From assembly GCA_937930555.1 (NCBI GenBank), contig CALHCH010000045.1, forward strand, positions 1 through 62,632: 62,632 bases of DNA, written 5' to 3'. Below the pieces are notes generated by a model that worked only from the letters and a program-made list of their open reading frames with translations, was not told the origin of the DNA and searched no databases. The position numbers and the translations under genes were made by a program. Source of the DNA: Candidatus Absconditabacterales bacterium. Lineage in GTDB: Bacteria; Patescibacteriota; Gracilibacteria; Absconditabacterales; Absconditicoccaceae. Every line of letters begins with the position of its first letter. Within the stretch, counting starts at the first letter, position 1. This document shows positions 17,336-21,801 of this stretch, one piece after another.

Positions 17336-17349
17336 TAGTTGATAACAAT

Positions 17350-17471
17350 CGTCATCCTGAATGTCATCCTGAGCTTGTCGAAGGGTGAACATGAAGGATC
17401 TCATGAGAAAAAATCCTTCGTTCATTTATTCTCGCACCCTTCGACTTCACTGCGTTTCGCTCAGGATGACA
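17350..17471. repeat. Dispersed palindromic repeat, family A (complete palindrome)
   Basis: GTCATCCTGAGCTTGTCGAAGGGTG...CACCCTTCGACTTCACTGCGTTTCGCTCAGGATGAC. Confidence 0.75.
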
Positions 17472-17509
17472 GACTCACGTACATCCAATATTTTACCCAG
17501 CTCAACCAT

Positions 17510-21247: not shown

Positions 21248-21576
21248 AAAGCTTCTATCGCAAATCCGCCTCAACTCTTCTCTCTCAAGTCAGGAGCACG
21301 TAAGATATTCATAATTTCGCAAGCTTACAAATAGACATTCAGATCAACATCAGTATAAGACAGAATACATCAAATATAGGTAGTTACTTGATGCGATCAT
21401 AAAATTATCTGATAGTCTCAAAATCTACGTATCTAAAAATCTATATGGAAAAACAAACTACACTTACTACTTCCATATAAGCTAGGACTAAAAAAACGAG
21501 GGATATAGTTGTAAACAAAAAGAGCAGAAATAGTGCATCTATAAATCTTAAAATCTACGTATCTAAAAATCTAAAT

Positions 21577-21592
21577 GGTGGGGTGGCCGAGT
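21577..21592 (+). pseudogene. Orphan 5' fragment of tRNA-Ser
   Basis: GGTGGGGTGGCCGAGT is identical to bases 1-16 of the intact tRNA-Ser at 21715; 18-nt identity including the preceding AT. Confidence 0.7.
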
Positions 21593-21594
21593 TA

Positions 21595-21648
21595 ATTGAA
21601 TACCTATATATGCAGAGCGAAGTGATAGCATATATGGTTATATTCAAT
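21595..21648. repeat. Long imperfect inverted repeat (hairpin)
   Basis: ATTGAATAccTATATATGC - agagcgaagtgata - GCATATATGgtTATATTCAAT. Confidence 0.7.
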
Positions 21649-21714
21649 ATATATCGTAACAAGAAAACAGAACTAGAAATACAAACACAAAAAAGATAGT
21701 AAAATAAATTTGAT

Positions 21715-21801
21715 GGTGGGGTGGCCGAGTGGTCGAAGGCGCTACCTTGGAAAGGTAGTGTGCATTCATTTGTACCGAGGGTTCGAATCCCTTCCCCACC
21801 T
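21715..21801 (+). tRNA. tRNA-Ser (anticodon GGA)
   Basis: GGTGGGGTGGCCGAGTGGTCGAAGGCGCTACCTTGGAAAGGTAGTGTGCATTCATTTGTACCGAGGGTTCGAATCCCTTCCCCACC; anticodon loop TTGGAAA; long variable arm; CCA not encoded. Confidence 0.95.

Follow-up and report, generated by a model that had tools for sequence, protein, structure and literature searches.

The tRNA-Ser(GGA) gene of the window (the whole stretch of 62,632 nucleotides of Absconditabacterales DNA analysed here) is preceded by a partial copy of its own 5' end, which breaks off in the D loop and runs directly into an imperfect hairpin of a dispersed family, R1. On balance, we lean towards reading this feature as an example of a genus-specific system of "tRNA cassettes", in which a mobile hairpin inserts in a tRNA loop, the outer end of the tRNA is duplicated and the gene is regenerated. 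Mobile DNA is well known to land in tRNA genes, in cases that concern one or a few tRNAs and kilobase elements with an integrase. In contrast, the polar, loop-specific copies described here were found, with hairpins of about 60 nt, at 34 of the 78 tRNAs examined in three genomes of a tiny-genome lineage (G000, the window's genome, G002 and G003). If the insertion model is true, this would be a very small mobile element that spares its target by regenerating it.

The window locus

The 18-nt sequence ATGGTGGGGTGGCCGAGT occurs exactly twice in the window, 138 nt apart (Table 1), and is absent from the rest of the 1.2-Mb genome with up to two mismatches allowed. Its first occurrence breaks in the D loop after tRNA nucleotide 16. 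The hairpin that follows folds better than shuffled sequence (z = -3.4 as RNA and -3.7 as DNA). Both the exact repeat and the switch to a long imperfect hairpin at the D loop had been proposed in the first-pass annotation of this DNA and were confirmed; the duplication of the preceding leader segment is also real, and longer than had been claimed. The annotation had further likened the hairpin loop to repeats that it called family A. With two occurrences in the window, where chance predicts 1.2, the word GAGCGAAG was rejected as a significant shared word, whereas the likeness of the C-GAA-G tip holds across relatives.

Table 1. Features of the tRNA-Ser(GGA) locus in the window.
Feature	Position	Strand	Evidence
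First leader repeat copy, A/T-rich, 42 nt, ends ATATGG	21407..21448	+	D1, 86% to 21537-21578
Second leader repeat copy, continues into partial tRNA copy	21537..21578	+	direct repeat D1
Partial 5' copy of tRNA-Ser(GGA): 2 leader bases and tRNA nt 1-16	21575..21592	+	18/18 identical to 21713-21730
R1 hairpin, 63 nt, imperfect	21593..21655	+	covariance model R1, 74.1 bits
TAATT end of R1	21593-21597	+	
Arms of R1	21595-21613 and 21628-21648	+	
Loop region of R1, AGAGCGAAGTGATA	21614-21627	+	
A-rich spacer, 57 nt, from hairpin to intact tRNA	21656..21712	+	sequence; alignment with G003 Ser(GGA) unit
Second copy of 18-nt duplication, 5' end of intact tRNA	21713..21730	+	
Intact tRNA-Ser(GGA) gene	21715..21801	+	ARAGORN; Rfam RF00005, 59.9 bits

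An inverted repeat, TATATGGAA...TTCCATATA, lies 3' of the first leader copy, and the two together are possibly the remnant of an older, decayed unit. An A/T-rich stretch like the leader repeat also stands ahead of the tRNA-Gln units of G000. The spacer contains AACTAGAAATACAAA, which is related to the spacers of the tRNA-Ser(TGA) and tRNA-Tyr units. The genes nearest to the unit are a sodium/hydrogen exchanger on one side and TruD on the other; a DHH phosphoesterase, a Na/Ca exchanger and a DEAD helicase lie further out. Most long reading frames of the window are open only under genetic code 25 (TGA = Gly). Ten large ORFs of the window were scanned, and none matched a mobile-element family. 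tRNA was the sole Rfam 15 family matched in the window, and in the other units and R1 loci, too, no family except tRNA passed its gathering threshold; known Rfam families were thus rejected as an identity for R1 or the units.

Polar partial copies at tRNA genes

For a subset of the tRNAs of these genomes, the flanks were searched for the tRNA's own ends, with a seed that hides fragments shorter than 11 nt. Partial self-copies were found at 13 of 28 tRNAs in G000, 9 of 27 in G002 and 12 of 23 in G003, of which a few single one-mismatch matches (Arg-CCG and Arg-TCG in G000) may be due to chance. None was seen at the 39 tRNAs of the sister genomes (0/21 in G001, 0/18 in G004) or at the 32 of G009, a complete genome from another genus. 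The 5' copies stand exclusively upstream of the intact gene and the 3' copies exclusively downstream; wrong-side controls (5' end downstream, 3' end upstream) gave zero in every genome. Breaks of the 5' copies fall mostly at nucleotides 14-17, in the D loop, and otherwise at 11 (mainly tRNA-Gln), 20-24 and 29. The 3' copies start mostly 16-17 nt from the tRNA end, in the T loop. Partial and intact copies are 55-160 nt apart in most cases. The duplication reaches 15 to 79 nt beyond the tRNA into the leader at tRNA-Tyr, Gln, Pro and His, the longest of these extensions being array units copied from each other; elsewhere, the window included, it is almost confined to the tRNA part. The first-pass annotation had set against its own reading the random decay of a simple tandem tRNA duplication, which does not fit this polar, loop-specific pattern with its conserved hairpins.

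The copied ends track the host's own tRNA at the Ser, Leu, Glu, Trp, Thr, His and Pro sites. We used these seven tRNA sites instead of a count of 110 of 111 sites, which was discarded as inflated by one-base offsets and by the choice of copies similar to the own tRNA.

The unit at tRNA-Ser(GGA) of G003 has the same arrangement as that of the window, but consists of two tandem units with two hairpin variants. Arrays with different hairpins at one tRNA occur at this gene and, in G000, at tRNA-Gln and tRNA-Ser(TGA). In several units the hairpin is of another type than R1: it is GC-rich at Thr, Val and Pro tRNAs, and belongs to a second family at Ser(TGA) and Tyr. Downstream, GATCTCTTA units follow Ala, Arg and Leu tRNAs, and mini T-arm units follow Gly, Glu and Trp tRNAs. 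The downstream units at Ala, Arg and Leu (L128, L109, L158, L133) form a family of about 150 nt, GGTTCGCACTTCC ... GATCTCTTA, which looks inserted exactly in the T loop.

The R1 hairpin family

R1 is defined by a covariance model of the window's hairpin family, an element of about 63-80 nt. Among the five genomes of the genus (G000 to G004), the model found 57 copies in G003, where an earlier pattern search had found 10, 7 in G002, 6 in G000, 1 in G001 and none in G004; none was found in 44 other genomes of the family. Across the class, R1 was detected in 4 of 353 genomes, all of one genus of Absconditabacterales, under strict filters that may miss weak relatives. In G000, each of the six copies is found just 5' of a tRNA gene, a location that makes up about 1% of the genome, and most copies of G003 are not at tRNAs. 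Many G003 copies (L137, L138, L139, L141, L154) lie within low-complexity 9-mer arrays, TTAGGTAAA / TTGGGCAAG, and at these loci R1 also forms head-to-tail arrays with a 68-nt period.

Among 57 distinct copies of R1, all 17 base pairs show two-sided changes and 93.9% of cells pair; the covariation score is 0.518, compared to 0.165 for shuffled and 0.05-0.07 for slid controls. G.T wobble pairs outnumber A.C pairs 35 to 5, which shows that R1 has one functional strand. The C-GAA-G tip and two G.A/G.A internal loops are nearly invariant. Tips of the d(GCGAAGC) type form unusually stable single-stranded DNA hairpins, and given this stability R1 may exist as a single-stranded DNA as well as an RNA structure.

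In three species R1 is found inside a longer conserved intergenic sequence away from tRNAs (L080 and L087 in G002, L105 in G003, L081 in G001), in the order CTCTCAAGAGTTTAAGGAAT, R1, GAAGGCTCTGAGAGTAT and then a terminator-like hairpin. This locus may be an RNA gene, not previously described, from which R1 derives.

Direct repeats around R1

Both at tRNAs and away from them, direct repeats bound R1 more often than chance would predict and terminate at or close to its constant TAATT end, with a mean match score of 10.5 as compared to 6.0 for mispaired flanks, some of the repeats falling in low-complexity flanks. A score of at least 10 was reached by 16 of 38 copies against 3% in the control. 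The data overall thus agree with target-site duplication by R1, with the repeat absent or unclear at many single copies. Non-tRNA examples are TTAGAATTAG, AAAATAGAAA and AGAGGTTAGA, and about half of the non-tRNA copies have no clear direct repeat. Downstream of tRNA-Trp in G002 and G003 (L090; L227), R1 is inverted relative to the tRNA and its TAATT end again lies at the tRNA break, so that one insertion rule covers upstream and downstream units.

These repeats bear on an explanation that needs no mobile element, namely that replication slippage or template switching at tRNA hairpins would yield tandem duplicates of tRNA ends with hairpin fill-in. The position of the breaks in loops and the presence of several unrelated hairpin types would suit such a process. 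So would the Met, Trp and Leu units, which keep inner or later tRNA segments and look more like modified tandem tRNA duplicates with an internal hairpin swap than like simple insertions. We nevertheless regard template switching as improbable, because R1, with the same covarying structure, also occurs dispersed away from tRNAs, flanked there by repeats of its own, and because the phenomenon is restricted to one genus.

Proposed insertion with regeneration of the tRNA gene

We infer that insertion with target duplication gave rise to the pattern, and that the same process produced the units with other hairpins. R1 would be a short, strand-specific, non-autonomous mobile repeat that inserts in a tRNA gene so that its TAATT end abuts the break, in one orientation in the D arm and in the reverse one in the T arm. 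Whichever tRNA end lies outside the break, the 5' end after D-arm hits and the 3' end after T-arm hits, would be duplicated together with 0-79 nt of flank. The predicted product is the old tRNA end, the hairpin, the spacer and the regenerated intact tRNA in this order, or the mirror image downstream, and tandem arrays would be built by repeated insertion or unequal exchange. Insertion would be tolerated because the tRNA is regenerated. Duplication of the outer end beside an intact tRNA would account for the polarity and the tandem arrays, and would explain why each fragment matches the tRNA that it adjoins. Insertion of a tRNA-targeted element, as the first-pass annotation had suggested, is well supported, since the hairpin is dispersed, recurs at the D and T arms of several tRNAs and has the tRNA end duplicated around it.

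The G004 relative has the tRNA without a unit, with about 100 nt upstream, between a TruD-like gene and a gene that ends like the window's exchanger; this synteny was judged by eye from DNA and translated ends, at a site that is not alignable base by base. The unit-free site supports gain of the unit in the lineage of the window.

The units may instead be maintained as cis-acting RNA modules, cotranscribed with the tRNA, that modulate how it is transcribed, folded or processed by RNase P/Z, for instance by acceptor-strand competition. This reading, which could be combined with an origin by insertion, seems doubtful to us. The wobble asymmetry marks one functional strand, the copied ends at the seven sites named above track the host's own tRNA, and orthologous units show 66-79% alignment identity between species, which makes them look old and maintained, while most spacer sequence is unalignable. 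Such conservation could indicate purifying selection and hence an RNA role, but related hairpins inserting independently would also align. Comparison of flank conservation between tRNAs with and without units did not separate the models, as neighbouring coding DNA dominates the alignments. Predicted folds allow the partial copy to pair with the opposite acceptor strand (32 of 37 folds, the three parameter sets giving identical numbers and not being independent), but shuffled inserts did the same in 138 of 148 cases; designed replacement of the acceptor strand by the outer partial copy was therefore dropped, the counts being uninformative on design. The inverted R1 at tRNA-Trp speaks against a single RNA role, such as that of the chimeric small RNA which the first-pass annotation had offered as an alternative, most R1 copies of G003 lie away from tRNAs, and G001 and G004 do without units. 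If the cis-RNA model is true, it would reveal a previously undescribed layer of tRNA gene control. Either model predicts misannotated tRNA pseudogenes.

A broader form of the insertion reading is offered more tentatively. A lineage-specific class of elements may have specialised in tRNA genes, which they would break at the D or T loop and rebuild by end copying, in such a way that a large share of tRNAs would carry inherited, growing cassettes of tRNA end and hairpin, some of them since kept as functional RNA modules.

Search for a mobilising enzyme

The analysis identified no enzyme that would mobilise R1. Motif scans of 1.12 Mb of G000, which are insensitive, found no reverse transcriptase, tyrosine recombinase or YREK-type gene. 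One serine recombinase is present in G000, on a contig other than that of the window. No transposase of the DDE type was found near R1. RAYT-type Y1 transposases are present in the genus, flanked by palindromes other than R1, and the loci around RAYT genes gave no match to R1; RAYT was thus rejected as its mobiliser. Target duplication is not known for Y1 enzymes. Of the RAYT-like Y1 transposases at L238, L240, L241 and L242, two are flanked by palindromes of their own, GATATGGCGATTACTAATCGCC and CGAAGGTGCGGTCGACGACCG.

Comparison with known systems

Rickettsia palindromic elements (RPE) enter coding genes in frame. R1 resembles them as a mobile-looking hairpin that enters genes in a reduced genome, and differs in that it would target tRNA loops, with duplication restoring the gene. 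REP/BIME sequences of the GTAG and CGTC types (PMC3733652) are, like R1, short dispersed palindromes, probably single-stranded hairpins and non-autonomous, with RAYT-like genes in the same genomes; CGTC repeats, RPE-like in type, lack a dedicated transposase (PMC3733652). As a many-copy dispersed palindrome R1 matches REP in G003, though just 6-7 copies occur in G000 and G002. However, R1 is longer, has internal G.A loops and direct repeats, is nested in tRNA genes and has no tag at most ends: GTAG, CGTC or GGAG was found within 10 nt of the 5' end in 4 of 38 copies and near the 3' end in 6 of 38. Unlike RAYT-mobilised REP, R1 is not the palindrome that the RAYTs carry here. REP palindromes and Rickettsia palindromic elements are the closest known systems (PMC3733652). 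Elements of the IS1634/IS1549 type also make direct repeats of variable length (8-514 bp), by a mechanism that is unexplained, but are 1.5-2 kb long with a DDE transposase (PMC2266710). We found no published description of cassettes of tRNA end and hairpin in the literature outside subscription papers.

In prokaryotes, partial tRNA genes have been attributed to kilobase-scale integrations or CRISPR spacers, and such integrations are usually recognised by a partial tRNA copy (PMC9897764). The cassettes resemble integrase attL/attR sites in that the insert lies between an intact and a partial tRNA copy, which form direct repeats, and the 3' copies that break in the T loop resemble known attB sites (PMC1762012). 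Remnants of phages or integrative elements, with attL/attR scars whose interior was lost, are nevertheless highly improbable here. Known copies are about 9-23 kb apart (PMC9897764), whereas the inserts here are 40-150 nt; no integrase gene or kilobase-scale element lies between the copies. Many tRNA identities, about half of the tRNAs examined, are affected at once, both 5' and 3' copies occur, many of them 5', and a covarying hairpin is shared. The scans of G000 offer a serine recombinase on another contig and no tyrosine-recombinase motif in 1.12 Mb. The R1 core pattern is absent from 2.9 million viral contigs, and a phage source of R1 was rejected on this ground. Of the duplicated attachment site that the first-pass annotation had considered, the flanking direct duplication therefore stands, and the integrase-sized element does not.

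Other observations

Two minor observations concern neighbouring sequence and code usage. A reading frame at 17339-17480 of the window, just before the DHH gene, encodes ILSLSKG...STSLRFAQDD, as CGTC-type REP palindromes usually do when translated; the 5' end of the gene probably carries a REP. In the code-25 genomes G002 and G003, ARAGORN called a tRNA-SeC(TCA) (L157, L158), which is most likely a Gly tRNA reading UGA.
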